Source of the DNA: Burkholderia sp. USMB20
GTDB lineage: Bacteria; Pseudomonadota; Gammaproteobacteria; Burkholderiales; Burkholderiaceae
Reading direction: 5' to 3'
NCBI RefSeq assembly: GCF_000949135.2
Contig: NZ_JTAN02000002.1
Location: 1 to 64,000, forward strand
DNA length: 64,000 nucleotides
Positions 41,646 through 63,050 of this stretch are shown here, piece after piece. The notes beneath the pieces are model-generated. The model did not search any database. It had not been told where the DNA came from and worked only from the letters and a program-made list of their open reading frames with translations. The position numbers and the translations under genes were made by a program. Each line of letters opens with the position of its first letter. Position 1 is the first letter of the stretch.

Positions 41646-41720
41646 GACAGGGGAATACCCTGTCTTTTTTTCTCGATCCAGTTTTATGTATCATGACCTA
41701 TCTTTTGCAACATTTACTAA
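41646..41720 (+). promoter_or_regulatory. shared regulatory element, copy 1 (upstream of amine oxidase 1)
   Basis: It holds ACAGGGGAATACCCTGT followed by TTTTTTT, then at 40 nt past the ACCC the block TATCATGACCTA, a TTTTGCAACAT stretch and TTTACTAA. Three further copies occur at 45571, 56442 and 62978. Here there is no plus-strand gene upstream to terminate, so the hairpin-plus-T structure is not simply a terminator. Confidence 0.7.
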
Positions 41721-41889
41721 TTAAGCGAGCCGACGAATCCTTATCGTGACGGGGACCTTCGGCACGCGGCGAGGCAGGCGTACGCACCGGCCTCGACGCA
41801 TTCGGTCGTCGGATTTCGCGCGGACGAAAGTCGCGTGCCGCCGGGCACGCGGTCGTTCGCGCCCTTTTGCAGGCAGGAACCCAACCATC

Positions 41890-43374
41890 ATGTCCAGCAA
41901 GTCATCCTCCCGCGGGTCGGCCGACCCGCAGCGCAGGCAGTGGCTGAAGATCGCCGGCGCGTCCGTCGCGGCCGGCGGCCTGGCGCTCGGCGCGGCGCGC
42001 GCCGGTGCCGATACCGCACCGGTCGCCGGCACCGACGGCGACGTGCTCGACGTCGCGATCGTCGGCGCCGGGCTCGCCGGGCTGACCGCCGCGCGCGACC
42101 TGCGCTACGCGGGCTGCGAATCCTTCGTCGTGCTCGAGGCGCGCGATCGGGTCGGCGGCCGCACGCTCAACTACGACATCGGCGGCGGCCATGTGTCGGA
42201 AGTCGGCGGCCAGTGGATCGGCCCGGGTCAGACGGCCGTCGCGGATCTCGCCCGCGAACTGGAAGTCGGCACGTTTCCGAGCTACTACGCGGGCAAGACG
42301 GTCATCCTCGGCGGCGACGGCCGCGCCGAGATCGACCTGGACGGCACGTTCGGCACCGACGAGGCCATCGCCGCGAAGCTGAGCCGGCTGTCGCGCGACG
42401 TGCCGTCGGGCGCGCCGTGGATGTCGCCGAAGGCGGCCGAACTCGACCGGCTGTCGGTCGGCGACTGGCTCGCGCAGCAGGGCATCAAGCCCGAGGACCG
42501 GATGGGCTGGAACGCGTCGATCTCGCTGTCGGGCGGCACCGCGCCGGCGAAGATGGGGCTGCTGCATTTCCTGTCGATGATCAACTCCGCCGCTTGCGAT
42601 TACGCGCAGCTCGACTCGATCCGGCACAGCGCGCAGGAAACCCGCTTCGTCGGCGGCTCGCAGATTCTCAGCATCCGGATGGCGCAACAGCTCGGCGACA
42701 AGGTGCGGCTCTCGTCGCCGGTGCGCCGGATCGTCGGCTGGGATCGCGCCGTCGTCACGCTGCAGACGGATCGCGGCACGGTGCGCGCGCGCAAGGTCGT
42801 GATGGCGCTGCACCCGGCGCTGTGCCAGCAGGTGCAGTTCGATCCGCCGCTGCCCGACAAGCGCGGCGCGCTGCAGCGCGCATGGCCCGCGCATTCGCCG
42901 GCGCGCAAGACGGCGATGGTCTATCGCCGCCCGTTCTGGCGCGACAAGGGCCTGAACGGCCACATCTTCCAGACCGACGGGCCGATCTTCTGGGCCTACG
43001 ACAACTCGCCGCCGGGCGGCGAGATCGGCGTGATCAACGCGTTCGTGCGCAATGCGCTGATGCCGTCGGACCCGCAGGCCGCGAAGCAGATGCACATGGA
43101 CCTCTATGCGCAGGCGTGGGGCGACGACGCGCGTGCGCCGGTGTCGTACCACGATCGCGACTGGGGGCTCGCCGACCCGTGGACGATCACCTGCGTATCG
43201 GCGATTCCGCCCGGCTTCTGGACCGCGCACGGCGACGCGCTGCGCGCGCCGTGCGGCAACCTGATCTGGTCGGGCACCGAGACCGCGAACATCTGGGCCG
43301 GCTACATGGACGGCGCGGTGCGCTCGGGCCACCAGGCCGCGCTTCAGGCGCTCAATGCACTGCGTCGCGCGTAG
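41890..43374 (+). CDS. Tat-exported flavin amine oxidase 1
   Basis: This 494-residue FAD enzyme oxidises an amine to an imine. A twin-arginine signal (DPQRRQWLKIAGASVAAGG) predicts periplasmic location. The FAD site is seen in VAIVGAGLAGLTAARDL and EARDRVGGRT, and the substrate-domain motif NLIWSGTETANIWAGYMDGA near the C-terminus is typical of the monoamine-oxidase group. ATG 41890 has AGGAA upstream; a start at 41746 would add only a basic stretch. A di-haem cytochrome gene follows after 10 bp, so electrons probably pass to cytochrome c and not to oxygen, as known for NicA2. It is a paralogue of the gene at 54255. Confidence 0.9.
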   Translation: MSSKSSSRGSADPQRRQWLKIAGASVAAGGLALGAARAGADTAPVAGTDGDVLDVAIVGAGLAGLTAARDLRYAGCESFVVLEARDRVGGRTLNYDIGGGHVSEVGGQWIGPGQTAVADLARELEVGTFPSYYAGKTVILGGDGRAEIDLDGTFGTDEAIAAKLSRLSRDVPSGAPWMSPKAAELDRLSVGDWLAQQGIKPEDRMGWNASISLSGGTAPAKMGLLHFLSMINSAACDYAQLDSIRHSAQETRFVGGSQILSIRMAQQLGDKVRLSSPVRRIVGWDRAVVTLQTDRGTVRARKVVMALHPALCQQVQFDPPLPDKRGALQRAWPAHSPARKTAMVYRRPFWRDKGLNGHIFQTDGPIFWAYDNSPPGGEIGVINAFVRNALMPSDPQAAKQMHMDLYAQAWGDDARAPVSYHDRDWGLADPWTITCVSAIPPGFWTAHGDALRAPCGNLIWSGTETANIWAGYMDGAVRSGHQAALQALNALRRA

Positions 43375-43384
43375 GAGACCGAAG

Positions 43385-44044
43385 ATGAAGAAACGCATGC
43401 TGCTGCTCGCCGCGCTCGTGATCGCCGGCGTGCTCCTGGCCGTCTACGGCCCCGCGGTGCTCGGCTTCTATCGCCTGCAGCGCCATATCGATACGACGAC
43501 GCAGGCCGACGACGCCGACGGCGGCCCGTGGCCACGCACGACCGACGTCTGCATGGGCTGTCACGGCGTGAAGGGCACGTCGCTGAGCGACGCGTATCCG
43601 AGCCTCGCCGGCCAGCCCGCACCCTACGTGGTCGCCCAGCTTCACGCATTCGCGAGCGGACGACGCGCGAACCCGACGATGGCACCGCTCGCGATGACGA
43701 TGAGCGACGCCGAGATCGCGCGACTGGCCGACTACTACGCGAAGCAGGCGCCGCAGGACAACCGCTATTTCAAGCCGGACGCGCGGCTGCGCGCGAAGGG
43801 CGAGCAACTGGTGACGGGCGGCGCGTGCGTCGCTTGCCACGGCGCGCGGCTGACCGGCCAGGCGCAGTTTCCGCGGCTCGCGGGGCAGGGCGCCGACTAC
43901 CTGCGCGCGCAACTCGACGCATTCGCGAACGGTGTCCGTATCGAGGCCACCGGCACGATGCAGCGCGTCGCGCAGGCGATGTCGGCGGACGATCGGGCGG
44001 CGGTCGCGACCTATCTCGCGAGCCTCGGTCCCGGCACACGGTGA
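43385..44044 (+). CDS. di-haem cytochrome c, partner of amine oxidase 1
   Basis: This 219-residue cytochrome has an N-terminal hydrophobic signal/anchor (about 5-27) and two haem-binding motifs, CMGCH and CVACH, in a c4-type tandem arrangement. It acts in the periplasm as an electron carrier. It lies 10 bp after amine oxidase 1, with AGGAGACCGAAG upstream of the ATG, and is a paralogue of the cytochrome at 55734. The obvious role is to accept electrons from the periplasmic flavoenzyme and pass them to the respiratory chain. Confidence 0.92.
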   Translation: MKKRMLLLAALVIAGVLLAVYGPAVLGFYRLQRHIDTTTQADDADGGPWPRTTDVCMGCHGVKGTSLSDAYPSLAGQPAPYVVAQLHAFASGRRANPTMAPLAMTMSDAEIARLADYYAKQAPQDNRYFKPDARLRAKGEQLVTGGACVACHGARLTGQAQFPRLAGQGADYLRAQLDAFANGVRIEATGTMQRVAQAMSADDRAAVATYLASLGPGTR

Positions 44045-44085
44045 ATCAACGTCAACGGCAGCAATCGACCTCGGGAGTTCGAACC

Positions 44086-44760
44086 ATGGATCACAGATCA
44101 CTTGTCCTTTGTCTTGCCAGCGCGACGCTTGCGGCGACGACCGGCGTGTACGGCTTCAAGTTCGTCCGCAAGCGCAACTTCCTGCTCGGCTTCGAGTGGT
44201 GGATCGTGACGATCTCGGCATCCAATGCCGTGATCTTCTTCGCGACCGAATCGCCGGTGTCGTACTTCGTTTCGCACTTCCTCGACGCGTTCTCGCGCGG
44301 GTTCGGGATGCCGGTGATCGCGGTCGCGGGCCTGATGGCCGTCACGCACGGCTACCGGCCATCGGTGCGGCAGGACGTGACGCTGTTCGTGCTCGCGACG
44401 CTCGGGACGATTGCGCTCGTGGCCGGCGCGTTGCAGCACGCGCTGCCGTACTTCTACGTGACGATGTGGACGCTGATGTCGATCTATCTCGCGGGTTTCG
44501 TGTTGCGGCTCGCGCGTGCGGGCCACGCGTTCCATGCGCTGACGACGACGATCGCGCTCGTCGCTTCGCTGGCGATCGCGTGCATCTACGACTTCTACAA
44601 GATCCCGGGCGAGGAAACCAACGTCGTGTTCAATTTCTACGTGCTGGCATTGCTCACCTGGTCGTACCTGACCGCCGCGCTTTATTACGCGTATTGCGCA
44701 CTTGAGCGCGACGCCGGACGCGGCACGGCGAGCGCAAACGTATTGTCGTATCCGAAATGA
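44086..44760 (+). CDS. multi-pass membrane protein of unknown function
   Basis: This 224-residue protein has about six to seven hydrophobic segments, for example VLCLASATLAATTGVYGF, MPVIAVAGLMAVTHG and LFVLATLGTIALVAGALQ. The ATG at 44086 follows TCGGGAGTTC. It is the third gene after amine oxidase 1 and its cytochrome. I do not recognise the family; a transporter or an anchor for the redox pair is possible. Confidence 0.82.
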   Translation: MDHRSLVLCLASATLAATTGVYGFKFVRKRNFLLGFEWWIVTISASNAVIFFATESPVSYFVSHFLDAFSRGFGMPVIAVAGLMAVTHGYRPSVRQDVTLFVLATLGTIALVAGALQHALPYFYVTMWTLMSIYLAGFVLRLARAGHAFHALTTTIALVASLAIACIYDFYKIPGEETNVVFNFYVLALLTWSYLTAALYYAYCALERDAGRGTASANVLSYPK

Positions 44761-44833
44761 GTAGTTATGCAAAGGAAGCGCTGACGGCTCGCGATGTGCG
44801 GCGGGCCGGCCGCGACGCTCATGGAGCGTACGG

Positions 44834-45457
44834 ATGGCCCCGGCTCGCCTGACCCGCGCGCAGCGGCGCGATGCGACGCGCGAACGCCTGCTCGGCGCCG
44901 CGCGTGTGATTTTCGCGGAGAAGGGCCATGCGGCCGCGAGCGTCGAGGACATCGCGGCGGCGGCCGGGCATACGCGCGGTGCGTTCTATGCACACTTTGG
45001 CAGCAAGACGGAGATGCTGTTCGAGTTGCTGCGGCGCGATCACGACGACACCGCGACCGCGCTGCAACGGCTCGCCGGATTGCCGGCGGGTTCGGCCGAG
45101 GACGCGCAACGCGCGATGCTCGCGTATTGGCGGCCGGGGGCCGCGCGGCATGCGTCGCGGCTGATGTGGCTGGAGGCGCAGTTGCAGGCGGCGCGCGATC
45201 CGGCATTCCGCGCGCAGTTCGGCGCGTTACTGCGCGAGCGGCAGGCGCTCGCGACCGCGTGCATCGACGCGTTCGCGGCGCGCGTCGACGTGTCGCTGCC
45301 GCTGCCATCGCAGGTGCTGGCGCTCGGCCTGACCGCGCTGGGCGACGGCATGCAGTCATGCTGTGCGGCCGACGGGCGGCGCAACGCCGACACGCTGGCC
45401 GATGCGGCGCTGGTCGGTTTCCTCACGCACGCGGTGTTCGGCCGCGGGTGCGAATGA
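44834..45457 (+). CDS. TetR-family repressor 1
   Basis: This 207-residue regulator has the TetR N-terminal helix-turn-helix (GAARVIFAEKGHAAASVEDIAAAAGHTRGAFYAHFGSKTEM) and a helical C-terminal ligand domain. ATG 44834 follows GGAGCGTACGG. It lies at the end of the first amine-oxidase unit and just before the second copy of the shared element, so it is a candidate controller of the regulon. Its ligand is unknown. Confidence 0.9.
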   Translation: MAPARLTRAQRRDATRERLLGAARVIFAEKGHAAASVEDIAAAAGHTRGAFYAHFGSKTEMLFELLRRDHDDTATALQRLAGLPAGSAEDAQRAMLAYWRPGAARHASRLMWLEAQLQAARDPAFRAQFGALLRERQALATACIDAFAARVDVSLPLPSQVLALGLTALGDGMQSCCAADGRRNADTLADAALVGFLTHAVFGRGCE

Positions 45458-45570
45458 CGTAACGGCGAAGCGCCGGGCGCGCTTCGTCGCCGGGTTGTAT
45501 GACGGCTGAAAGCGGTTTGTCATGGCGGAGCGGCCAGCCGTCGTGACGGACCCGCGAACATGCAGACGAA

Positions 45571-45642
45571 ACAGGGAATACCCCGTCTTTTTCTTTTCTT
45601 TATTTTTGTCATGATGACCTAACATTGTCACCATGTTCTACT
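45571..45642 (+). promoter_or_regulatory. shared regulatory element, copy 2 (upstream of the dioxygenase operon)
   Basis: It holds ACAGGGAATACCCCGT followed by a T-rich run, then 38 nt past ACCC the block TTTGTCATGATGACCTA, with the perfect inverted repeat GTCAT-G-ATGAC. A -35-like TTGTCA (45606-45611), a 17-nt spacer and CACCAT follow, then TGTTCTA. It lies 62 bp before the dioxygenase ATG. Confidence 0.75.
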
Positions 45643-45703
45643 GAAGGCGTCGGCAGTGAGCGATCGCTGGCCGGCAGTGGTTGGACGAATCAGGAGATCT
45701 ACG

Positions 45704-46537
45704 ATGGATGCACTCATGCGCAAGGCCTTTTTCGAGGACGGCGCGGTTCTCGTCGAAGGCGCACTCGACGCGGCGCAGCTCGCGCAATGCCGCGCGGTGT
45801 TCGACTGGGGGATGGAGAACCCGGGGCCGATGGCAGCGGCGTTGCTCGACGGCACCGAATACCGGTCGCACAACGACAACGCGAACCCGTATGCGAAGGC
45901 GCGGCTCGACGAACTGGTCGCCACGCTGCCGTTCGGGAAACTGTTCGCCGACCTGTGGGGCTCGAAGCACGTGTGGTACTTCGCCGAGGAGCTGTTCATG
46001 AAGGCCGGCGGCAAGAGCGCACGCTCGCCGTGGCACCAGGACACGTCGTACCTGCCGTGGCAAGGCATGCACTTCGGCAATGCGTGGATCAGCTTCGAGC
46101 ACGTGCCGAAGCGCAACGCGCTGGAGATCGTGCGCGGCTCGCATCACGGCGTGCGCCATGACGGCACCACGTTCCAGAACGCCGAGGACCCGACCGACCC
46201 GCTGCATGGCGGCGACGTGTGGCCGCGCCTGCCGAACATCGAGGCGGAGCGGCGCGTGGCGCCCGATGCGTACGACATCGTGTCGTGGGAAACCAAGCCG
46301 GGCGACGTGCTGCTGCTGCATCCGGGCGTGCTGCACGGCGGCGGCGCGGTCGATGCCGCGTTCCCCGATCGCCACACGCTCGTGCTGCGCTTCTTCGGCG
46401 ACGACGCCGTGTTCAGCCCGCTGCCCGATGAAAGCCGCTCGGGCTTCACGCCGGCCGGCGTGCTGTTCGTCGAGGAACTCGCCGGGCTGAAGGCCGGCGA
46501 CCCGTTCCGCGCACCGTGTTTCCGTCAACTCGTCTGA
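45704..46537 (+). CDS. phytanoyl-CoA dioxygenase (PhyH) family protein
   Basis: This 277-residue Fe(II)/2-oxoglutarate oxygenase has the metal-binding HxD in SPWHQDTSYLPW and the distal His in VLLLHPGVLHGGG. Family members hydroxylate lipids, acyl groups or natural products. ATG 45704 follows CAGGAGATCTACG and is preferred to an upstream start at 45656. It is the first gene of the large second unit, so hydroxylation or N-dealkylation of the substrate may be an early step; the substrate is not known. Confidence 0.9.
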   Translation: MDALMRKAFFEDGAVLVEGALDAAQLAQCRAVFDWGMENPGPMAAALLDGTEYRSHNDNANPYAKARLDELVATLPFGKLFADLWGSKHVWYFAEELFMKAGGKSARSPWHQDTSYLPWQGMHFGNAWISFEHVPKRNALEIVRGSHHGVRHDGTTFQNAEDPTDPLHGGDVWPRLPNIEAERRVAPDAYDIVSWETKPGDVLLLHPGVLHGGGAVDAAFPDRHTLVLRFFGDDAVFSPLPDESRSGFTPAGVLFVEELAGLKAGDPFRAPCFRQLV

Positions 46538-46554
46538 GCAAGGAGTTTTTCATC

Positions 46555-46968
46555 ATGTCAGCCAACCCGAAGCGGCAATCGATCGTTCCGCCTCCGTTCC
46601 AGCCGTGGTACGACGCGTACCACTTCTCGCCGGCCACGCGCGTCGGCGACACGATCTGGGTGTCGGGCCAGGTCGGTCTCGACGCGCAGATGCAGCCGGC
46701 GGACGGCGTGGCGGCGCAGGCGCGGATCGCATTCGAGAGCCTGAAGATGATTCTCGAAGCGGCCGGCGCGAGCCTCGCCGACGTCGTCGAACTGACGACC
46801 TTCCACACCGATCTTCAGCAGGACACGCAGGGCTTCGCGGCAGTCAAGGACGTGTATTTCCCGACCCGCTATCCGTCCTGGACGGCAGTCGGCGTGTCGC
46901 AGCTGGCGCTGCCGGGGATGTGCGTCGAAGTGCGTGCGGTCGCGGTGGCCGGGTCGGGCAAGGACTGA
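46555..46968 (+). CDS. RidA-family imine/enamine deaminase
   Basis: This 137-residue RidA (YjgF/UK114) protein has the family pattern DTIWVSGQVGLD near the start and the conserved Arg in MCVEVRAVAVAG that binds the carboxylate of imino acids in active deaminases. RidA proteins hydrolyse reactive imines or enamines. An imine hydrolase in a cluster with flavin amine oxidases is a chemically sensible pairing. ATG 46555 has AAGGAG upstream and lies 17 bp after the dioxygenase stop. Confidence 0.88.
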   Translation: MSANPKRQSIVPPPFQPWYDAYHFSPATRVGDTIWVSGQVGLDAQMQPADGVAAQARIAFESLKMILEAAGASLADVVELTTFHTDLQQDTQGFAAVKDVYFPTRYPSWTAVGVSQLALPGMCVEVRAVAVAGSGKD

Positions 46969-47056
46969 ACCCGGCGGCAGCACGTCATTCCTTCTCGACG
47001 AGCGTGCATCATGAATCGCAGTCCTGAGGAATGACGAAATCGTATCGGAACAGGCA

Positions 47057-47086
47057 GGCGGCCGGCCGTCATCGCGGCCGGCCGCC
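47057..47086. repeat. strong GC hairpin between ridA-like and DUF1329 genes
   Basis: GGCGGCCGGCCG (47057-47068) pairs perfectly with CGGCCGGCCGCC (47075-47086) across a TCATCG loop. No T run follows, so it may be a pause, processing or attenuation structure and not a full terminator. A second inverted repeat, GTCATTCCT/AGGAATGAC (46984-46992 and 47027-47035), lies just upstream. Confidence 0.7.
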
Positions 47087-47182
47087 ATCAGGGAGCGACG
47101 CGATCGTCGGGTGACGAGCGCGGGCGGAGTGAATGCGCGGGGCCCGTGTCGGGCAAACGAACGCGCGGTGGGAAGGAGAACC

Positions 47183-48550
47183 ATGATGATCAAGCATCGA
47201 TTCTGGGCCGTGTCCGCACTCGCGGCCGCTGCGTGTCTCGCGATCGGCACGGCCGTCGCGGCGGACGACCTGACGCCGGCGGGCGCCGATCGATCGGCGA
47301 GCAAGGACGGCACGGTGCCGGCCTACGCCGGCAAGCAGTCGCCCGACGCGGGCTGGGAGTGGGGCAAGGTACGCGCCGATTTCTGGAAGCACCGCAACGA
47401 GAAGCCGCTGTATTCGATCGACGCGGCGAACGTCGACAAGTACGCGGACAAGCTGTCGCCCGGGCAGGTCGCGCTGATCAAGCAGAAGAAAGGCTACCGG
47501 ATGGACGTCTATCCGTCCCATCGCGAATGCCAGCTGCCGGACGCCGTCGAGCAGAATTCGAAGGCGAACCTCGCGGCCGCGAAGCTCGGGCCGGCCGGCG
47601 AGACGCTCGGATCGGCGGTGCTGCCGGGCGTGCCGTTCCCGCAACCGAAGAGCGGGATCGAGGCGATCCTCAACTACGAGATGCGCTATCGCGGCGAAGG
47701 CGTCGATTGGGCGCAGATGGCGACGACCGTGTCGCCGCGTCCGGGCAGCAGCGAATGGATCGACGCCGTCGGCCCGCAGACGTACTACTTTCCGTCGGGC
47801 AAGCTCGGCAAGCTATCGCCGCAGGACGTCGACCAGTTGAGCGCCGCCGTGTACTTCCAGATGAATTCGCCGGCCGCGCTGGCCGGCCAGGCATTCGTGC
47901 AGCGCCAGTACTTCGACAAGGCATCTGAGACGTACTACTACTTCCCCGGCCAGCGCCGCGTGCGCCGCATGCCGGCCTATACGCACGATGCGCCGCTGAT
48001 CGGCTTCGAGAACCAGTACCTGATCGACGAAGGCAACATGATCAACGGCGCGCTCGACCGCTTCAACTGGAAGCTGGTCGGCAAGAAGGAAATGATCGTC
48101 CCGTACAACGCGTTCGGCCTGTACAAGTTCAAGAGCAAGCTGCACGACGTCGCGACGCCGGACGGCATCGCGGCCGCGAGCCGGCGCTACGAGACGCACC
48201 GCGTGTGGGTGGTCGAGGCGACGCTCAAGCCGAGCGCGCGGCACGTCGCATCGAAGAAGACCTTCTATCTCGACGAGGACAGCTGGCTCGCGCTGGTCGG
48301 CGAGGACTACGACGCGCAGGGCAAGCTGTGGAAGGTGCGGGAGAGCTATCCGATCCCGGTCTGGGAGCTGGGCGGCACCTGCGACAACGAACCGCTCGCG
48401 CAGTACGACATGAACAACGGCCGCTACGTGCTCGATGCGACGTCGATCGGGCAGGGCAAGGACGTCCGCTGGCTCGAGCACGCCGACGATCCGCGCTTCA
48501 AGCAGGATTCCTACACGGCCGAATCGCTGCGCTCGGTCAGCGAACGGTGA
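47183..48550 (+). CDS. DUF1329 outer-membrane/periplasmic protein
   Basis: This 455-residue protein has a signal peptide (about 1-26, ending AVA) and the DUF1329 pattern: ADDLTPAGADR at the mature N-terminus and HRVWVVEATLKPSARHVASKK and SYPIPVWELGGTCDN later. Proteins of this family accompany DUF1302 and MMPL genes in clusters for steroids, terpenes and other hydrophobic compounds and are thought to aid passage through the envelope. ATG 47183 follows GGAAGGAG. Its neighbours DUF1302, MMPL and YCF48 follow in order. Confidence 0.9.
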   Translation: MMIKHRFWAVSALAAAACLAIGTAVAADDLTPAGADRSASKDGTVPAYAGKQSPDAGWEWGKVRADFWKHRNEKPLYSIDAANVDKYADKLSPGQVALIKQKKGYRMDVYPSHRECQLPDAVEQNSKANLAAAKLGPAGETLGSAVLPGVPFPQPKSGIEAILNYEMRYRGEGVDWAQMATTVSPRPGSSEWIDAVGPQTYYFPSGKLGKLSPQDVDQLSAAVYFQMNSPAALAGQAFVQRQYFDKASETYYYFPGQRRVRRMPAYTHDAPLIGFENQYLIDEGNMINGALDRFNWKLVGKKEMIVPYNAFGLYKFKSKLHDVATPDGIAAASRRYETHRVWVVEATLKPSARHVASKKTFYLDEDSWLALVGEDYDAQGKLWKVRESYPIPVWELGGTCDNEPLAQYDMNNGRYVLDATSIGQGKDVRWLEHADDPRFKQDSYTAESLRSVSER

Positions 48551-48630
48551 TCGCCGTCGACTGACGGACCACAAGGGACCGGCGCGCGCAACGACCGCGC
48601 GCCGGCGTCGGACAGGGGCGGAGAAGGATC

Positions 48631-50475: not shown

Positions 50476-50530
50476 CGCCGATGTGCTTAAGGGCGGCGTG
50501 CGCCGCCGCCAATCATGAAGGGGTAATGTC

Positions 50531-52891: not shown

Positions 52892-52922
52892 AGCTCACGA
52901 ACATCCTGACGGAGATTCGATC

Positions 52923-53207: not shown

Positions 53208-53237
53208 TGCCCGCGTACACCACTTCAGAGACTCACG

Positions 53238-54209: not shown

Positions 54210-54254
54210 ATCGAATCCGCTGACAGAAAAGCAAGGAAGGATGGAGTACTTATC

Positions 54255-56441: not shown

Positions 56442-56513
56442 CTCGGGAATACCCTGCCTTTTTCTTCGTCGTTTACTTTGTCATAGTGACCTAAGATTGG
56501 TAATGTGTTCTAT
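56442..56513 (+). promoter_or_regulatory. shared regulatory element, copy 3 (upstream of the CoA operon)
   Basis: It holds GGGAATACCC and TTTTT, then 39 nt past ACCC the block TTTGTCATAGTGACCTA (GTCA-TAG-TGAC inverted repeat). TTGTCA (56478-56483), a 17-nt spacer and TAATGT (56501-56506) form a good sigma-70-like promoter, followed by TGTTCTA. The GGG/CCC stem is too short for a terminator here, although the core is kept, which favours a binding site. Confidence 0.78.
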
Positions 56514-56594
56514 AAAAAGCACCCGAGTGTGAAGCAGCAGTAGCGAACGTCCGACCGACCCGATTTTCAACAACTCACGTTTCAGGAGACAACC

Positions 56595-57725
56595 ATGGCC
56601 AAGCACCCCGTCGTCGTTTACGGCGCAAGCGGTTACACCGGCATGTTGATCATGGACTGGCTGATCGACCAGAACATCCCGTTCACCGCGATCGCGCGCA
56701 ACGCGGGCCGCGCGAAGGAAATGATGGCGCAACGCGTCGTGCGCCTCGAATCGGCGCAATACGAAATCATCGAGGCGGAGCACAACGTCGATTCGCTCGT
56801 GAACGCGTTTCGCGGCGCGAAGGTGGTCTGCAATACCGTCGGGCCGTTCTCGAGCTTCGGGCTCGTCGGCGTCGAGGCCGCGCTGAAGGCCGGCTGTCAC
56901 CACCTCGATACGACCGGCGAGCAGTCGTACATCCGCGCGGTGCGCGACCAGTTCGGCGAGCTGTACCGCCAGGCCGGGCTGCTGGTGTCGTCGTCGAACG
57001 CGTACATGTACACGTTCGCCGAGATCGCCGCCGAACTCGCGCTCGAAACGCCGGGCATCGACGCGCTGGAGACGGCCACGCTGACCCGCGGCCCGCGCGG
57101 CGCGGCCGGCGTGAGCATCGGCTCGACCGCGACGATCTTCGACGGCGCGCGCCACGAGTCCTGCTACCTGTGGGAGAAGGCGCTGGTGCCGCACGCGGCC
57201 GATGCGTCGTTCACCGTCGCGACGCCGGAACTCATGCAGCCGGTGTTCTGCCTGCCGTGGGGCGGCACGTCGCTGCCGGTCTATTTCGAGCGCGACCCGC
57301 GCGTGCGCAGCTGCATCTCGTGCGTCGGCTTCTACGACAACAACGTGATGAAGCTCGTGCACCAGTTCGGGCAGAAATGGGAAGCCGAATACAAGCATCT
57401 GCCGCGCGAGCAGCAGGACGCGATCCTCAAGCAGGTCGTCGATTCGACCACGCCGACGATGCCGCCGCGCGAGCGCACGACGATCCAGCGCAGCGTCGAC
57501 TTCGCGATTGGCCGCGGCCAGCTCGCGTCGGTGCGCGCGACCGTGCACGGCATCACGCCGTACATCTCGACCGGCGCGATCCACGCGGCGGGCGTGCTCA
57601 AGCTGCTCGACGGCGACGTCGCGCGCACGGGCTTCGCGTCGGGCTCGAAGGCGTTCGGCCACCGCTACCTGCTCGGCTTCCTCGAACAGCGCGGGCTCGC
57701 GCGCGCGACGGTCACGCAGCTGTGA
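56595..57725 (+). CDS. saccharopine-dehydrogenase-like NAD(P) oxidoreductase
   Basis: This 376-residue protein has a Rossmann NAD(P) site at the N-terminus (HPVVVYGASGYTGMLIMDWL) and the saccharopine dehydrogenase/trans-acting enoyl-reductase type layout, with VVCNTVGPFSSFG and CHHLDTTGEQSY. It is too short and diverged for lysine metabolism. Reduction or oxidation of an acyl or imine intermediate is likely. ATG 56595 follows CAGGAGACAACC. It begins the third unit and precedes the acyl-CoA synthetase gene by 39 bp. Confidence 0.87.
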   Translation: MAKHPVVVYGASGYTGMLIMDWLIDQNIPFTAIARNAGRAKEMMAQRVVRLESAQYEIIEAEHNVDSLVNAFRGAKVVCNTVGPFSSFGLVGVEAALKAGCHHLDTTGEQSYIRAVRDQFGELYRQAGLLVSSSNAYMYTFAEIAAELALETPGIDALETATLTRGPRGAAGVSIGSTATIFDGARHESCYLWEKALVPHAADASFTVATPELMQPVFCLPWGGTSLPVYFERDPRVRSCISCVGFYDNNVMKLVHQFGQKWEAEYKHLPREQQDAILKQVVDSTTPTMPPRERTTIQRSVDFAIGRGQLASVRATVHGITPYISTGAIHAAGVLKLLDGDVARTGFASGSKAFGHRYLLGFLEQRGLARATVTQL

Positions 57726-57764
57726 CGGCCGCCGCGCCGATCTTCATTCAACGGAACACGTGAC

Positions 57765-59318
57765 ATGGCCATTATCGATTTCTACGACCGCGGGTGGCGC
57801 ATCAATCCCGACGGCATCGCGTATATCCAGGACGAGCGCAGCTACACGTTCCAGGAGATCGGCGAGCTGTCGTGCCGCATCGCGAACGGGCTGCTCGCCG
57901 CCGGCTTCGCGAAGGAGGCGAAGGCGGCGGTATGGGCGGACAACGACGTGACCGGCTGGAGCTGCGCGCTCGGGATGTGGCGCGCGGGGCTCGCGTATAT
58001 CCCGGTCAACGGCCGCAACGCGCCGGCCGAGAACCAGTACGTGCTCGACGCGTTCGACTGCGAGGTGCTGTTCTTCCACCACGCGTTCGCGGCTGCGATC
58101 GACGCGCTGCGGCCGAGCCTGCCGAAGGTGCGGCTGTGGGTGTGCATCGACGCCGACCTGCCGTGGGCGCCGTCGCTCGCGACGTGGAGCGAAGGACGGC
58201 CGGCGACGCCGCCGGTGGTCGACTACGGGATGGACGACGTCATCACGCTGTCGGCGACCGGCGGCACGACCGGCTTGCCGAAGGGCGTGATGAACACGCA
58301 CCGCTCGTTCCAGACGTACTTCGCGAACTTCATGATCGCGATGTCGTATGGCGCCGAGCGGCCGGTCAATCTCGCTGCCGCGCCGATGACGCACACGGCC
58401 GGGATGATGTCGCTGCCGTGCACCGCGCGCGGCGGCACGGTGGTCGTGCTGCCGAAGCCCGACCCCGCGCTGCTGCTCGGCGCGATCGTGAAGCACCGCG
58501 TGACCGAGTTCTTCCTGCCGCCGACCGTGATCTACCGGCTGCTCGACATTCCCGGCATCGACAAGGTCGACTTCTCGTCGCTGCGCTATTTCCTGTACGG
58601 CGCCGCGCCGATGTCGGTCGAGAAGCTCAAGCGCGCGATCGACGTGTTCGGCCCGGTGATGACGGGCGGTTACGGGCAGACCGAAGCGCCCGCGTCGATC
58701 TCGTACCTGACGCCGGCCGAGCATTTCGTCGACGGCGCGCTGGCGCCGGACGAACGGCTGGCGTCGGTCGGCCGCCCGAGTCCGCTGGTGCGCGTCGAGA
58801 TCGTCGGCGAGCGCGGCGACGTGCTGAAGCAGAGCGAAACCGGCGAGATTTGCGTGCGCGGCGACCTCGTGATGAAGGGCTATTACCGCGCGCCGGACAA
58901 GACGGCCGAGACGATCGTCGACGGCTGGCTGCATACCGGCGACATCGGCCATCTCGATCGGGACGGCTACCTGCACATCACCGACCGCAAGAAGGACATG
59001 ATCATCAGCGGCGGCTTCAACGTCTATCCGAGCGAAGTCGAGCAGGTGATCTGGGCGCATCCGGCCGTGCAGGACTGCGCGGTGATCGGCGTGCCCGACG
59101 ACAAGTGGGGCGAGGCCGTGAAGGCCGTCGTCGAGCTCAACGCGGGCCAGCAGGTGAGCGCCGAGGAACTGATCGCGCTGTGCAAGGCGCAGCTGGGCTC
59201 GGTGAAGGCGCCGAAGAGCGTGGACTTCATCGCGGCGCTGCCGCGCAGCACGGCAGGCAAGGTGCTGAAGAAGGACCTGCGTGAACAGTACTGGCAAGGC
59301 CGGCAACGCCGGATCTGA
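57765..59318 (+). CDS. AMP-forming acyl-CoA synthetase
   Basis: This 517-residue enzyme activates a carboxylic acid to its CoA thioester via an acyl-adenylate. The motifs are LSATGGTTGLPKGVMNTHRS, GGYGQTEAPASIS, TGDIGHLDRDGYLHITDRKKD with IISGGFNVYPSEVE, and the C-terminal catalytic Lys in PRSTAGKVLKKDL. The substrate-binding part resembles medium/long-chain or aromatic acid ligases, but chain length cannot be read. It is followed by a thiolase 25 bp downstream, so the acid is probably made by upstream oxidations of the amine carbon chain. Confidence 0.93.
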   Translation: MAIIDFYDRGWRINPDGIAYIQDERSYTFQEIGELSCRIANGLLAAGFAKEAKAAVWADNDVTGWSCALGMWRAGLAYIPVNGRNAPAENQYVLDAFDCEVLFFHHAFAAAIDALRPSLPKVRLWVCIDADLPWAPSLATWSEGRPATPPVVDYGMDDVITLSATGGTTGLPKGVMNTHRSFQTYFANFMIAMSYGAERPVNLAAAPMTHTAGMMSLPCTARGGTVVVLPKPDPALLLGAIVKHRVTEFFLPPTVIYRLLDIPGIDKVDFSSLRYFLYGAAPMSVEKLKRAIDVFGPVMTGGYGQTEAPASISYLTPAEHFVDGALAPDERLASVGRPSPLVRVEIVGERGDVLKQSETGEICVRGDLVMKGYYRAPDKTAETIVDGWLHTGDIGHLDRDGYLHITDRKKDMIISGGFNVYPSEVEQVIWAHPAVQDCAVIGVPDDKWGEAVKAVVELNAGQQVSAEELIALCKAQLGSVKAPKSVDFIAALPRSTAGKVLKKDLREQYWQGRQRRI

Positions 59319-59343
59319 CCGGAATAGATATGGACTCCAGACG

Positions 59344-60585
59344 ATGAGCAAAATCTACATCGCCGGCATCGCAATGACCGTGTTCGGCCGGCACCCCGAC
59401 CGCAGCGTCGACGACCTCGCGCGCGAGGCGCTGCAGCGCGCGTTGCGCGATGCCGGTTGCCATGCCGACGCGATCCGCGCGGCGTTCTACTCCGGCATCA
59501 CCAACGGCGCGTTGCAGGGGCAGCTATCGATCCCTGGCCAGGTCGTGTTCGGCAAGATCGGGCTCGACGGCATTCCGATGTTCAACGTCGAGAACGCGTG
59601 CGCGTCCGGCAGCACGGCCGTGCACCTCGCGGTGCGCGAGCTGCAGTCGGGCGCGTGCGATGTCGCGCTCGCGCTCGGCGCGGAGAAGATGAACGTCTCG
59701 GACAAGGCGAAATCGTTCGCGCTGTTCGAGGCCGGCTGGGACGTCGCGCGCGTCGACGAGAACTTCGCGACGCTCGCGCGGCTCGGCGAGGGGATTGAGC
59801 CGCCGCCCGGCTCGGAATCCGGGCGGCCGTACAGCCGCTTCATGAAGATCTACGCGGCGCTGTGCCGGCATCACATGCGCACGTACGGCACGACGCAGCG
59901 GCAGATCGCGGCCGTGTCCGCGAAGAACCACGCGCATTCGGTGCACAACCCGTACTCGCAGTTCCGCCAGCCGTTCACGATCGACGAGGTGCTGGCGGCG
60001 CCGCCGATCACGTACCCGATCACGCTGCCGATGTGCGCGCCGCTGTCGGACGGCGCGGCCGCGGCAATCCTCTGCACCGAGGGAGGGCTCGCGCGCATCG
60101 GTGCCGATCGCAGCCGTTGCATCCGCGTCGCCGCGAGCGTGATCCGCAGCTTCTCGCGGCGCCGGATCGACGAGCCGCACAAGCACATCGGCCGGCTCGC
60201 CGCATTGCAGGCGTACGAGCAGGCCGGCGTCGGGCCGGAGGACATGGACGTCGCCGAAGTGCACGACGCGTCGGCGATGGGCGAGATCATCCAGGCCGAG
60301 AACCTCGGCTTCGTGCCGCTCGGCGAAGGTGGCCCGGCCGCGGAGCGCGGCGAGTTCACGCTCGGCGGGCGAATCCCGATCAACACGTCGGGCGGCCTCG
60401 AATCAAAGGGTCATCCGCTCGGCGCGACCGGCATCGGGCAGCTTTACGAACTGGTCACGCAATTGCGCGGCGAGGCCGGTGCGCGCCAGGTGCAGGGCGC
60501 GCGCCACGCCATTCAGGAAAACGGCGGCGGCCTGCAGGGCATCGAGGAAGCGGCGCTGGCGATTCACATACTCAGCAGGGATTGA
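59344..60585 (+). CDS. SCP-x-type thiolase
   Basis: This 413-residue thiolase has the nucleophile Cys in NVENACASGSTAVHLA and GGLESKGHPLGATGIGQLYEL. The C-terminal ARHAIQENGGG is the lipid-transfer (SCP2/SCP-x) thiolase pattern and replaces the usual CxG motif. Enzymes of this group cleave beta-ketoacyl-CoA of branched or cyclic substrates. ATG 59344 is chosen because it gives a normal N-terminus (MSKIYIAGIAMTVFGRHPDRS). It sits between the acyl-CoA synthetase and a DadA-type oxidase. Confidence 0.9.
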   Translation: MSKIYIAGIAMTVFGRHPDRSVDDLAREALQRALRDAGCHADAIRAAFYSGITNGALQGQLSIPGQVVFGKIGLDGIPMFNVENACASGSTAVHLAVRELQSGACDVALALGAEKMNVSDKAKSFALFEAGWDVARVDENFATLARLGEGIEPPPGSESGRPYSRFMKIYAALCRHHMRTYGTTQRQIAAVSAKNHAHSVHNPYSQFRQPFTIDEVLAAPPITYPITLPMCAPLSDGAAAAILCTEGGLARIGADRSRCIRVAASVIRSFSRRRIDEPHKHIGRLAALQAYEQAGVGPEDMDVAEVHDASAMGEIIQAENLGFVPLGEGGPAAERGEFTLGGRIPINTSGGLESKGHPLGATGIGQLYELVTQLRGEAGARQVQGARHAIQENGGGLQGIEEAALAIHILSRD

Positions 60586-60596
60586 CGGAGGCGGAC

Positions 60597-62102
60597 ATGA
60601 GCGACGCATACGGTGCGACGACGGCCGGACAGACGGACCCGACAGCGCGGCAGCCCGGCGCGCGCGCGGCGGGCCGCGTGAGCGGCGTGGGTGGCGTGGG
60701 TGCGGCGGCGGCGATGCAGGCAGCCGGCGCGGATGCGGCGAGCCCGCTCGCGCGGTGGGGCGAGGAAGTCCGCGCGGATGCCGCGTTGCAGAAATACCGG
60801 CCGGTCGGCGGCTGGATCGACGCGCCGGCCGATCTGCAGCCGCCGCTCGAGGGCGACGTGCGCGCGGACGTGATCGTGGTCGGCGCCGGTTTCGCCGGCC
60901 TGTCGACGGCGCTCGAGCTGGCCGCGCGCGGCGCGAGCGTCGTCGTGCTCGAGCGCGAGTTCGCGGGGTTCGGCGCGAGCGGGCGCAACGCCGGCTATCT
61001 CGCGGGCGGCCAGGGGCTCGAGTACGAATTGTTTGTCAAGCGCGTCGGGCACGACCAGGCGAAGCGAATCGTCGGTTTCTACGACGAAGGCGTCGCGTAC
61101 GTCGAACGCAAGCTCGCCGATTACGCGATCGATTGCGACTACCGTGCGTCGGGCATCATCCGCGCGGGCGTGCATCCGTCGCAGGAGAAGCGCTTGCGCG
61201 AGAGCATGGAAACCGGCATCGCGCTCGGTTCGCCCGCGCAGTTCCTCGACGGCGCCGCGATGCGTGCGCGCGGCATTCCGCCGGCCTTCCTGTTCGGCGC
61301 GTACGTGCCGGGCGGCGGCACGCTCGATCCCGGCAAGTACGTGATGGGGCTGCGGCGCGCGGCGCTCGCGGCCGGCGTGAAGCTGTACGAGAACACCGCG
61401 CTGCTCGGCTTCGACGAAGGCGAGCACGTGCGCGTGCGCACCGCGCGCGGCAGCGCGAGCGCGCCGGTGCTGGTGCTCGCGACCAACGCGTACACGCCGC
61501 AACTCGGCCTGCTCGGCGACAAGGTGATGCCGTTGCGCGTGTCGGCGCTCGAAACCGAGCCGCTGTCCGACGCGCAACTCGACGCGCTCGGCTGGCCGAA
61601 TCGCGAGGGCATCGTGACGCCGCACCTGACGATGGAAAGCCACCGCCTCACCGCGCGCAACACGCTGCTGCTGACGACCAAGCGGCTGCACTACGTGTAT
61701 GGTTCGCAAACGCCGAACGTGCCGGACGACGACGCGTATCGCGCGCTCGCGAAAACGCTGCATGCGCGTTTTCCGCAACTGGGCAACGTGCCGGTGCGCG
61801 CCTGCTGGAGCGGCTACATTTCGTTCGCCGGCGACGCGTTGCCGGTGGTCGGTGCGGCCGGCACGCACCGCAACGTGTTCTACACGGCCGGCTGCTCGGG
61901 GCATGGCGTCGGCACGCAGTCGCTGATCGGGCGCGTGCTGGCCGAGCGGATTCACGACGGACGATCGCCGCTGCTCGACACGCTGACACACAAGACGCCG
62001 TCGGTGCCGCGGGAGCCGCTGCGCTGGTGCGCGATGACCGCGATGCTCGGCGTCGCGAACCTGCTCGACGAACGCGTGAACCGCAAGGTGCGCGCGACCT
62101 AG
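60597..62102 (+). CDS. DadA-type FAD-dependent amine/imino-acid oxidoreductase
   Basis: This 501-residue DAO-family flavoenzyme has a long N-terminal extension (about 1-80) before the FAD motif VIVVGAGFAGLSTALELAARG. GAGASGRNAGYLAGG-like and CSGHGVGTQSLIGRVLAE segments follow, as in gamma-glutamylputrescine oxidase (PuuB) and relatives. It probably oxidises a secondary amine or amino acid. ATG 60597 has GGAGGCGG upstream and lies 11 bp after the thiolase stop; no signal peptide is evident, so it is cytoplasmic, in contrast to the two Tat-exported oxidases. Confidence 0.88.
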   Translation: MSDAYGATTAGQTDPTARQPGARAAGRVSGVGGVGAAAAMQAAGADAASPLARWGEEVRADAALQKYRPVGGWIDAPADLQPPLEGDVRADVIVVGAGFAGLSTALELAARGASVVVLEREFAGFGASGRNAGYLAGGQGLEYELFVKRVGHDQAKRIVGFYDEGVAYVERKLADYAIDCDYRASGIIRAGVHPSQEKRLRESMETGIALGSPAQFLDGAAMRARGIPPAFLFGAYVPGGGTLDPGKYVMGLRRAALAAGVKLYENTALLGFDEGEHVRVRTARGSASAPVLVLATNAYTPQLGLLGDKVMPLRVSALETEPLSDAQLDALGWPNREGIVTPHLTMESHRLTARNTLLLTTKRLHYVYGSQTPNVPDDDAYRALAKTLHARFPQLGNVPVRACWSGYISFAGDALPVVGAAGTHRNVFYTAGCSGHGVGTQSLIGRVLAERIHDGRSPLLDTLTHKTPSVPREPLRWCAMTAMLGVANLLDERVNRKVRAT

Positions 62103-62171
62103 CGGCGCGCACGCTCGTCGCGGCGCGCCGGCGCGGATCCGGCCGGACCGCCCGGCAGTGGGGCGGCTCGA

Positions 62172-62227
62172 TGGAAAATGAGGCTCGCATCGGGTATAGT
62201 CGTTTGCGCTCCGTAAGGTACGGAGCG
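62172..62227 (+). promoter_or_regulatory. promoter and perfect palindromic operator of the TetR gene
   Basis: TGGAAA (62172-62177), a 17-nt spacer and TATAGT (62195-62200) form a promoter whose start falls at the perfect palindrome CGCTCCGTA-AGG-TACGGAGCG (62207-62227). A TetR dimer there would block transcription. The TetR ATG is 42 bp further on, so autoregulation is expected. Confidence 0.7.
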
Positions 62228-62269
62228 TCCATTCGACGAAGCCGAAACGCCATCTTCACGACGAACACG

Positions 62270-62944
62270 ATGACAGTGTCCAACGAGCAGCGCAGCCCCC
62301 GAAAACGGCGCACTTCGACTGCCACCGCAGCAGCGGGCAACCCCGACGGTTTGCGGGCGCAAGGCCTGCGCACGCGCAACACGATCATTCGCGTCGCGCG
62401 CAAGCTGCTGCTGGACGGCGGCCCGCTGGAATTCTCGCAGCGTGCGGTCGCCGCCGCCGCCGGCATCAGCGTCAGCAATCTGCAGTACTACTTCCCGACT
62501 CGGATCGCCGTGTTGCGGGCCGTCATCGAGCCGGTCATCGATACCTATCTCGACGACATGAAGCGCGCGCTCGGCAGCGACGCGTCGCCGCGTGACGTGT
62601 TCGACGAGATCATCCAGCGCTCGATCTCCGATGCGAAGGATGCGAAGTACAACGCACTGTTCCGGCATTTCCTGTCGTTCGCGGCCACCGATCCCGAATG
62701 CTTCAAGCTATACGACGAGTGGTATGCGACGCTGACGCACGATCTCGCGCAACTGCTGCGTGCCGTCAATCCGGAATTCGGCGCGGCCGACAGCCGGCAT
62801 GCGGCGACGATGCTGATCGCGCTCGCCGACGGCTTCGCGATGCAGTACGGCACCGGGCGCCATACGCAGGCGCTCGACACGTATTTCATCGCGACGTCGC
62901 GCGCGATCGCGTACGGCACGCTGACGGCGCCCGCGGGAAAATAA
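62270..62944 (+). CDS. TetR-family repressor 2
   Basis: This 224-residue regulator has a basic N-terminal tail and a TetR helix-turn-helix (RVARKLLLDGGPLEFSQRAVAAAAGISVSNLQYYFPTRIA). A long helical effector domain follows. It has its own promoter with a perfect palindrome at the predicted transcription start. It lies between the third and fourth units of the regulon and 34 bp before copy 4 of the shared element, so it may regulate either the CoA operon or the acyl-CoA dehydrogenase operon. Confidence 0.9.
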   Translation: MTVSNEQRSPRKRRTSTATAAAGNPDGLRAQGLRTRNTIIRVARKLLLDGGPLEFSQRAVAAAAGISVSNLQYYFPTRIAVLRAVIEPVIDTYLDDMKRALGSDASPRDVFDEIIQRSISDAKDAKYNALFRHFLSFAATDPECFKLYDEWYATLTHDLAQLLRAVNPEFGAADSRHAATMLIALADGFAMQYGTGRHTQALDTYFIATSRAIAYGTLTAPAGK

Positions 62945-62977
62945 CGACGCGCAGCGCACAGTCGATGCGGTGAACGA

Positions 62978-63050
62978 GACAGGGGAATACCCTGTCTTTT
63001 TTTTGCTTCCTGTGTTTGTCATGATGACCTATGTTTGGTATGTGTTACTA
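62978..63050 (+). promoter_or_regulatory. shared regulatory element, copy 4 (upstream of acyl-CoA dehydrogenase)
   Basis: It holds ACAGGGGAATACCCTGT and a long T run, then 39 nt past ACCC the block TTTGTCATGATGACCTA. TTGTCA (63016-63021), a 17-nt spacer and TATGTG (63039-63044) follow, then TGTTACTA. The acyl-CoA dehydrogenase ATG is about 67 bp further on. Confidence 0.78.

Follow-up and report, generated by a model that had tools for sequence, protein, structure and literature searches.

This locus raises the question of what is encoded by a two-part DNA element that occurs four times in the window, the 64-kb stretch of Burkholderia DNA analyzed here, and which regulator reads it. The left core of the element, GGGAATACCC, has four matches in the window, both strands counted, every one at this element (first base at 41651, 45574, 56445, and 62983), against a chance expectation of 0.02 on average and 1 at most in 100 first-order Markov windows. 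Profiles of both halves, built from a set including the four copies themselves, were scored over the whole window; the four copies reach 56.9 to 58.4 with the right-half profile (next best, 7.7) and 40.6 to 45.4 with the left-half profile (next best, 10.3). In copies 1 to 4, respectively, the T of TGACCTA lies 43, 41, 42, and 42 nt beyond the first G of the core. All four copies lie where the original prediction placed them, and the gene map agrees with its claim that each precedes a different transcription unit, all on the plus strand:

41890..44757, plus strand: unit after copy 1, flavin amine oxidase, cytochrome c, and membrane protein, with TetR_A next
45704..56423, plus strand: unit(s) after copy 2, PhyH, RidA, DUF1329, DUF1302, MMPL/RND, YCF48-like protein, flavin amine oxidase, and cytochrome c
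56595..62944, plus strand: unit after copy 3, DUF5938, AMP-binding ligase, thiolase-like protein, FAD oxidoreductase, and TetR_B
63117..63998, plus strand: acyl-CoA dehydrogenase after copy 4, running past the window end

The reading with somewhat better than an even chance, drawn from sequence comparison, is that each copy is a composite promoter of a dedicated catabolic regulon repressed by TetR_B, consisting of block R, in which tandem sites surround a predicted -10 hexamer, and an upstream part, L.

Tandem Repeat in Block R

The second half of the element is a tandem direct repeat of two 17-bp units with a period of 19 bp. The sequence blocks originally described for this half are present, but their repeat structure had been overlooked: one 17-bp unit appears twice, first as TTGTCA..TGACCTA and then as TTGG..TGTTCTA. 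The self-similarity of the profile is +15.5 at an offset of 19 and does not exceed 1.5 at any other non-zero offset, units A and B agree at 9.5 of 17 positions compared to 5.2 after shuffling, and one copy in genome G306 has the unit endings exchanged between the units. The units were assigned by profile and repeat comparison and the putative -10 hexamers by inference from comparison:

41684..41700, plus strand: copy 1, operator-like unit A, TTATGTATCATGACCTA
41699..41704, plus strand: copy 1, putative -10 TATCTT, overlapping the last bases of unit A and the first bases of unit B
41703..41719, plus strand: copy 1, operator-like unit B, TTTTGCAACATTTACTA
45605..45621, plus strand: copy 2, operator-like unit A, TTTGTCATGATGACCTA
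45620..45625, plus strand: copy 2, putative -10 TAACAT
45624..45640, plus strand: copy 2, operator-like unit B, ATTGTCACCATGTTCTA
56477..56493, plus strand: copy 3, operator-like unit A, TTTGTCATAGTGACCTA
56492..56497, plus strand: copy 3, putative -10 TAAGAT
56496..56512, plus strand: copy 3, operator-like unit B, ATTGGTAATGTGTTCTA
63015..63031, plus strand: copy 4, operator-like unit A, TTTGTCATGATGACCTA
63030..63035, plus strand: copy 4, putative -10 TATGTT
63034..63050, plus strand: copy 4, operator-like unit B, TTTGGTATGTGTTACTA

The unit falls short of a good palindrome, with the second and third pairs complementary in 0 to 4% of sites for both units; unit A shows partial symmetry and unit B hardly any. 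Such a poor palindrome is unusual for a TetR homodimer.

Role of Part L

Part L and the hairpins around the element were located by window search, profile, and hairpin scan or stem check:

41651..41660, plus strand: copy 1, left core GGGAATACCC, with TGTC and a T tract after it
41646..41664, plus strand: copy 1, hairpin GACAGGG-GAATA-CCCTGTC
45574..45583, plus strand: copy 2, left core GGGAATACCC, without a stem of 5 pairs
56445..56454, plus strand: copy 3, left core GGGAATACCC, without a stem of 5 pairs
62983..62992, plus strand: copy 4, left core GGGAATACCC, within a hairpin (62976 to 62998) followed by a T tract
45647..45675, plus strand: copy 2, GC-rich hairpin in the predicted 5' leader of PhyH (single-sequence fold only)
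63061..63085, plus strand: copy 4, hairpin GGCCGGGTGC-GTCT-GCTGCCCGGTC in the leader preceding the acyl-CoA dehydrogenase gene (weak covariation)

Among 91 sites anchored on block R, GGG-N4-CCC lies 36 to 49 nt from TGACCTA in 80, whereas a control window gives a single case in 91. It is also found in 12 of 19 sites from five clusters selected without the core; at the other 7, L is absent or decayed. The center of L lies 42.5 ± 1 bp from the -10 in 79 of 80 sites, the L-R spacing shifting by 1 to 2 bp while the intervening sequence is largely free.

The terminator look that had been noted for the left core of copies 1 and 4 is borne out by terminator-like hairpins in both, and copy 3, as described, lacks a real stem, as does copy 2. 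The core of copy 4 lies 38 nt past the TetR_B stop codon, and its hairpin may double as a terminator. L could be an intrinsic terminator only, which insulates each promoter and whose distance to R is inherited rather than functional. This reading, somewhat improbable on balance, draws on the hairpin and T tract that copies 1 and 4 share with 18 of 21 sites following TetR_B, on an arm pairing of 3.68 that exceeds all 2000 shuffles (mean, 3.04; maximum, 3.65), and on the compensated arms (GGCA...TGCC) of some L copies in G095 and G396, which would favor a terminator role there. Against it, the hairpin is independent of need, being present in 24 of 46 sites with a codirectional gene at most 220 nt upstream and in 26 of 45 sites without one (P = 0.68), and the core is retained in copies 2 and 3 without a stem. 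Copy 1 has no upstream gene to terminate, a point already held against a pure terminator role. A GC stem of at least 5 pairs followed by a T run occurs in 50 of 91 sites, one of which (G095) is another hairpin further upstream; terminator-like sites overall show no clear excess over shuffles (2 found and 3.1 expected; 7 found and 3.9 expected). Because of the fixed spacing and the lack of a link to upstream genes, L is better read as an upstream promoter element than as a terminator. The original preference for a protein-binding site over a mere terminator is supported. No activator that would act at L turned up.

Predicted Core Promoter and Operator Overlap

The -10 register that scores best and is best conserved is TAWNWT (6.63 bits), lying 14 nt past the first base of TTGTCA. 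A -35 hexamer is nearly missing, with a mean of 1.16 bits; two alternative -10 registers reach 5.68 and 2.72 bits, and the -35 term is better in both. The letters of the -10 coincide with operator columns, and their invariance is not independent; the sole independent column, a linker position, is A or T in 79, C in 12, and G in 0 of 91 sites. The two units flank this hexamer, which predicts an overlap of operator and core promoter. A sigma-70 consensus scan (at least 9 of 12) finds no plus-strand promoter at the four window copies and a single minus-strand site covering copy 2. Judged from these sequences, R is most likely a sigma-70-type promoter overlaid by a repressor operator.

The original prediction had instead taken TTGTCA as a -35, 17 nt from CACCAT, TAATGT, or TATGTG. 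If that promoter were real, the element would amount to an ordinary sigma-70 promoter preceded by a regulator site. This arrangement (17 nt to YANNNT) does exist in copies 2 to 4, and its -35 term is the best among the registers listed (5.36 bits), but the comparison favors TAWNWT: the -10 term of the TTGTCA register is poor (2.72 versus 6.63 bits), copy 1 carries TATGTA in place of TTGTCA, TTGTCA sits within the first operator-like unit, and the promoters of the sister clusters described below place the -10 between the units. The TTGTCA promoter is therefore unlikely.

The Element and TetR_B in Relatives

Two TetR-family genes in the window are candidates for the regulator:

62210..62944, plus strand: TetR_B, with TetR_N and a BetI-type C-terminal domain, last gene of the copy 3 unit, start codon uncertain
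44834..45457, plus strand: TetR_A, the second TetR-family regulator

A domain search of the candidate regulator gives 28.4 bits for TetR_N (cutoff, 24) and 38 bits for TetR_C_6 (cutoff, 27). The window regulators are single-domain TetRs of 207 and 244 amino acids, neither having two TetR domains in one chain. The solved structures nearest to TetR_B include RutR (E value of 6e-5); none of the solved relatives is close in sequence.

The composite promoter is tied to one catabolic cluster found in Burkholderia, Paraburkholderia, Caballeronia, Cupriavidus, and Pandoraea. The exact two-part pattern occurs in 38 of 398 genomes of the family, and a reversed control pattern occurs in none. The R profile, applied to the 150 best first-look candidates of each genome, yields 49 matches; they come from 15 of the 16 genomes picked by the pattern, and each lies at the cluster or at a second copy of it. 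The proposal of one regulon of four units is supported: in the relatives mapped, the element is placed at this gene cluster, and the wide occurrence at unrelated genes that would have refuted the proposal was not seen.

TetR_B is encoded in 43 of the 398 genomes: every one of the 38 with the exact pattern, and 5 others in which R lies at the cluster. No R site at an E value of ≤0.1 occurs in 15 TetR_B-negative genomes, and two of 20 TetR_B-negative genomes tested have one weak R each. Six genomes have cluster genes without a TetR_B match at an E value of ≤1e-30, two of them with a weak R before DUF5938. The weak sites are those of G291 (E value of 0.017) and G393 (E value of 0.2), and R is decayed in G252; these three clusters, without detected TetR_B, contain a double-TetR gene.

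The original prediction named both TetR proteins without choosing between them. Of 30 mapped stretches that contain R sites, 28 include TetR_B and 13 include TetR_A; for the two without TetR_B, the gene lies elsewhere in the genome. Among the genes traced, TetR_B is the only regulator that stays with the element. Since TetR_B belongs to the cluster, this co-occurrence partly reflects mere cluster membership. The helix-turn-helix region of TetR_B is 0.91 identical, compared to 0.64 elsewhere in the protein (54 sequences), and no regulator besides TetR_B was called inside the cluster of G275. These observations point to R most likely being the operator of a dedicated TetR_B.

AraC/XylS-like monomers bind asymmetric direct repeats of this sort, and AraC-type tandem sites have a period of about 21 bp. 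R might be a tandem binding site for an unlinked activator of this type, with TetR_B controlling something else, as the asymmetric, head-to-tail unit and the lack of a -35 would allow. This is rather improbable: R lies over the predicted -10 and start region, a repressor position that is also occupied by the sister arrays with their clear -35, the period is 19 rather than 21 bp, and TetR_B alone among the regulators of the traced genes remains with the element. By-eye inspection of the open reading frames of five clusters revealed no AraC-family gene.

Very unlikely is binding of R by a fused double-TetR like Mce3R, with TetR_B as a bystander: two unlike helix-turn-helix domains would explain an asymmetric unit, such genes lie near the cluster on the same contig in G003, G005, G006, G086, G340, and G360, they are found at the second cluster in G273 and on different contigs in G002 and G275, they accompany the weak R of G291, G393, and G252, and the Mce3R operator is described as non-palindromic (PMC11667970), but G001, G007, G008, G095, G191, G243, G311, and G396 have a good R without a double-TetR match at an E value of ≤1e-15, G229 and G257 have only a 24 to 28% single-domain match, and G208 and G053 have double-TetRs without R.

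Sister Clusters with a Double-TetR

The sister clusters encode a fused double-TetR in place of TetR_B. The protein of G208 has two TetR_N stretches, and the other sister double-TetRs are 69 to 72% identical to it. The tandem array differs as well, consisting of two or three exact-match units with a 22-bp period around a TANNAT -10 with a clear -35. A look-alike upstream element is centered 41.5 to 42.5 bp from the -10 in 7 promoters, like L, and the upstream elements of the two systems, GTGTTTTCCC and GGGTATTCCC (the complement of L), are identical at 8 of 10 positions. It is possible, if tentative, that the orthologous clusters swapped the whole repressor-operator system and kept the promoter geometry, with two asymmetric sites per 19 bp for TetR_B and two or three sites per 22 bp for the double-TetR, a related upstream element at 42.5 bp serving a shared activator, and a single-domain TetR reading a non-palindromic operator.

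Proposed Mechanism

In the mechanism proposed for the TetR_B system, the -10 (TAWNWT) would lie between tandem 17-bp sites, one just upstream and the other over the start region. TetR_B would bind both and thereby block RNA polymerase. A pathway intermediate presumably releases TetR_B, upon which all four units, together with the TetR_B gene, would be induced. L, GGGAATACCC with its T tract, centered about 42.5 bp upstream of the first -10 base, would compensate for the missing -35, most likely as the site of a yet-unfound activator and/or as a T-tract upstream promoter element. Where L follows a gene end, past TetR_B, it would usually be lengthened into a terminator hairpin. Sequence comparison shows the two-part make-up, the repeat within R, the narrow spacing, the attachment to this cluster, and the joint occurrence with TetR_B; repression, TetR_B as the protein bound, the precise -10, what L does, and the inducer are inferences.

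Comparison with Known Systems

An unannotated repeat thus becomes a testable regulon with one site, one candidate regulator, and about 18 target genes. Orthologous clusters in which both regulator and operator have changed offer a natural experiment on regulon rewiring, and a non-palindromic tandem operator beside a plain TetR probes how far TetR recognition departs from symmetry. As originally stated for the regulator, a literature search found no publication on this site; it also found no description of this oxidative pathway of amine oxidases, PhyH, acyl-CoA enzymes, and RND export.

Like TetR-family local repressor regulons, the system has a TetR gene within the operons presumably controlled, a predicted operator over the core promoter, and several controlled units. 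It differs in the operator, a tandem asymmetric 17-bp unit with a 19-bp period around the putative -10, and in the upstream element at a narrow distance. Mce3R of Mycobacterium controls lipid/sterol genes and has two 25-bp sites 53 bp apart (PMC11667970). The sister clusters resemble it in their fused double-TetR and non-palindromic repeated sites, whereas the window regulators are single-domain proteins and the sister arrays have two or three units every 22 bp. The DUF1302, DUF1329, YCF48-like (COG4447), and HAE3-type RND proteins of the copy 2 unit recall the AmeABCD RND cassette of Castellaniella defragrans, a type linked to hydrophobic-compound metabolism (PMC6394551). The remaining pathway genes differ between the two, and the text examined for that cassette mentions neither a regulator nor a promoter. 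The AphR/AphS/AphT-controlled DUF1302-PF07044-COG1033-COG4447 operons of Betaproteobacteria share the transport genes and a dedicated regulator, and in one such case, PhyH is encoded in an adjoining operon (PMC6449761). The regulator families and pathway genes differ, and the Burkholderia sp. 383 operons of that report are not equated with this cluster.

Four copies of a composite element in one catabolic cluster

The original prediction placed a two-part DNA element before four transcription units, and the four copies are borne out by a search of both strands of the window. The core GGGAATACCC, which together with a T tract makes up the left part (L), occurs at 41651, 45574, 56445 and 62983 only, compared with a mean chance expectation of 0.02 per window in 100 first-order Markov windows. 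The four copies are real and beyond chance. In all of them the core lies upstream, with 41 to 43 nt from its start to the T of TGACCTA. A single cluster lies downstream of the copies, in which flavin amine oxidase and cytochrome c are each present twice. Further genes encode PhyH, RidA, DUF1329, DUF1302, MMPL/RND, YCF48-like and DUF5938 proteins, an AMP-binding ligase, a thiolase-like protein, an FAD oxidoreductase, an acyl-CoA dehydrogenase and two TetR regulators, TetR_A (44834-45457) and TetR_B (62210-62944). The cluster also contains a membrane-type protein with no Pfam family (44086-44757), found in most mapped clusters, and a 94-aa open reading frame with a signal-peptide-like start (52923-53207) between the MMPL and YCF48-like genes, a counterpart of which is present in the relative G001.

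A species-wide scan for the core, T tract and TGACCTA, in which each of 84,980 species is represented by a single genome, yields 41 stretches, all from Burkholderia, Paraburkholderia, Caballeronia, Cupriavidus and Pandoraea. Without the T tract, the two-part pattern shows one to four matches per genome in eight of these genomes and is found in 38 of 398 family genomes, with no match in the reversed control of either search. Every match listed from the 398 genomes spans 47 to 50 nt, though 37 to 62 nt was allowed. Gene maps show that the place of the element within the same cluster varies between relatives, the mapped sites preceding amine oxidase, PhyH, RidA, DUF1329, DUF5938, acyl-CoA dehydrogenase or ETF genes. 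Among genomes sampled from the class, TetR_B (E≤1e-25) is found in 1 of 369 and DUF5938 (E≤1e-40) in 2 of 274; this sparseness points to the bacterial family as the place where the system occurs.

The right block as a tandem repeat

The right block (R) has the consensus TTTGTCATNATGACCTA-NN-WTTGGYANNNTGTTCTA in 81 distinct copies. These had been picked for exact matches to GGGAATACCC and TGACCTA, and the invariance of those letters is therefore not a result. Matched against itself, the R profile scores +15.5 at offset 19 and at most +1.5 at any other non-zero offset. The two 17-bp units, A and B, agree at 9.5 of 17 positions, compared with 5.2 for shuffled units, and one copy in the Cupriavidus genome G306 has its unit endings swapped. 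The outer bases of the unit form no palindrome.

A search profile of R, 36 nt long and built from 24 diverse copies, was scored on the best 150 first-look candidates per genome. Of 16 genomes picked by the pattern, 15 give hits, 49 in total. All of these lie at the cluster, counting with it a second cluster that G273 has on a different contig and additional cluster contigs in G002. By eye, a copy in G004 (stretches L049 and L078) shows an apparent third unit in the right block; this copy is unscored by the profile, which finds no R in that genome at E≤0.1. The 91 R-anchored sites analyzed below rest on a profile from copies picked by the core and TGACCTA, and mostly on loci fetched for that pattern; 29 of these sites lack an exact core within 50 nt.

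TetR_B as the candidate regulator

TetR_B is present in 43 of the 398 family genomes, including all 38 pattern-positive ones; the other five all carry R at the cluster. No R is found at E≤0.1 in 15 TetR_B-negative genomes. Of 30 mapped stretches that contain R sites, 28 include the gene, and the two remaining stretches belong to G002 and G273, which both carry TetR_B elsewhere in the genome. Across 54 sequences, the helix-turn-helix region is 0.91 identical to that of the window, and the remainder is 0.64 identical.

Because TetR_B itself belongs to the cluster, clusters without it were sought. DUF5938 occurs in 63 of the 398 genomes, and orthologues of at least 82% without TetR_B at E≤1e-30 are found in G053, G208, G252, G291 and G393; G232 has one at 67%. 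The profile at E≤1 does not find R in G053, G208, G252 or G232. A weak R lies directly before DUF5938 in G291 (E 0.017) and G393 (E 0.2), and one of the clusters in G252 shows a decayed R. The 2 of 20 TetR_B-negative genomes with a weak profile R, together with G252, are thus exceptions to a strict coupling of TetR_B and R.

Other regulators were rejected. TetR_A is found in 13 of the 30 mapped stretches with R, the OmpR-type two-component pair (39647-41499) adjoins only some clusters, and a LAL/MalT-type activator is not constantly at the cluster. Full-length LAL/MalT-type (LuxR) genes are close to the cluster in G001 (L063) and G004 (L078), and a relative of 28% lies near that of G086. Searches of seven further genomes with the G001 protein give near-full-length matches of 27 to 33% identity, none of them at a mapped cluster except that of G004. 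A sigma-54 or ECF promoter was set aside on by-eye judgement.

A sister system with a double TetR protein

Orthologous sister clusters in G053 and G208, one G252 cluster and the second G306 cluster carry, beside the pathway genes, a divergent gene for a chain of two TetR domains, assigned by Pfam on the G208 protein, to which the other double-TetRs are 69 to 72% identical. The fused proteins comprise ∼473 to 489 aa (L195-L202, L209). Seven sister promoters contain tandem NGGCC-N6-ACG, a 22-bp period array of two or three exact-match units surrounding TTGNNT-17-TANNAT. On visual inspection, the spacer holds one unit and the following one covers the start region, and the array appears to occupy the position where a repressor would sit. 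A search for it finds none in the remaining G252 cluster, G291, G393, G232, the window, G001 or G007, so not every double-TetR is accompanied by it. The double-TetR with its array looks like an uncharacterised Mce3R-like repressor and its operator.

Promoter and left part

By analogy with the sister promoters, whose -10 lies between array units, TAWNWT, located between the two units, is the putative -10 of the window element. Scored on the 91 R-anchored sites with an approximate sigma-70 matrix, this is the best register, at 6.63 bits (next, 5.68). Its T, A and last T are present in 91 of 91 sites, in columns shared with the operator units. There is hardly any -35, the mean being 1.16 bits versus 6.17 in the sister promoters by a similarly approximate matrix.

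In 80 of the 91 sites GGG-N4-CCC precedes TGACCTA by 36 to 49 nt, whereas a comparable control window ∼100 nt further upstream has it in 1 of 91; it is also present in 12 of 19 sites of five clusters chosen without the core. The distance from the center of L to the first -10 base is 42.5 ± 1 bp in 79 of the 80. Sister promoters carry GGTGTTTTCCCTA or a variant, a look-alike of the L complement spotted by eye. Aligned to that complement, its center is 41.5 or 42.5 bp from the -10 in all seven, two of which have 3 and 4 mismatches to the consensus. R sites without L also occur, for example on contig 16 of G273 and in G360. L with at most one mismatch is found in 43 of 43 TetR_B-positive versus 0 of 13 TetR_B-negative genomes, mostly by selection, since only G095, G191, G275 and G396 were chosen without the core.

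A hairpin of at least 5 pairs is present at 50 of the 91 sites (in G095 one of these is a different hairpin, further upstream). Its presence shows no relation to the end of a gene upstream, but it is found at 18 of 21 sites after TetR_B. L is read as a putative upstream promoter element that would double as a terminator after TetR_B. Compensated hairpin arms in some copies leave some weight with the reading of L as purely a terminator.

In L107, L109, L113, L115 and L117, the TetR_B gene is followed by the hairpin GACAGGGCATG(C/T)CCCTGTC with a T tract and no R; this form with altered core letters is a plain terminator-like version of L. L-like sequences such as GGGAATACCCGGCCTTTTT also lie off R sites (genome:contig:position G191:C72:2910, G243:C85:47757, G311:C1:317972, G306:C8:88766 and G311:C3:546503) and are perhaps ordinary terminators.

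Leader hairpin

Many leaders contain a GC-rich hairpin shortly after unit B, and it precedes the acyl-CoA dehydrogenase gene in most clusters folded. In the window it is predicted twice:

63061-63085, predicted 5' leader GC-rich hairpin
45647-45675, predicted 5' leader GC-rich hairpin

In all 20 leaders, comprising the acyl-CoA dehydrogenase class, ETF and one similar gene, pairing holds in 80% of cells versus 17 to 49% when slid. Double changes occur at 5 of 10 pairs, not clearly above shuffles (65/500). A first count of 16 leaders, which looked stronger, omitted G006, G243, G311 and G397 of the same class. The pairing hints weakly at an RNA element.

Proposed switch and comparison with known systems

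On balance, we lean towards a dedicated repressor switch. Here, TetR_B would sit on two tandem sites around the -10, the upstream element would take the place of the -35, and a single signal would switch all units. TetR_B would also regulate itself, as it is the last gene of the copy 3 unit. It is doubtful, if conceivable, that orthologous clusters have swapped the whole repressor-operator system while keeping the geometry and a shared activator site. Confidence in both proposals is tempered because the support from L and the leader hairpin weakens when selection is discounted.

The literature searched yields no description of the element; matches for GGGAATACCC and GTCATGATGACC are unrelated to it, going by their titles and the opening of their abstracts, and no paper was found there for DUF1302, DUF1329 and LuxR together. 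The transport genes of the copy 2 unit resemble the Ame cassette (PMC6394551), and the fused TetR of the sister clusters resembles Mce3R (PMC11667970).
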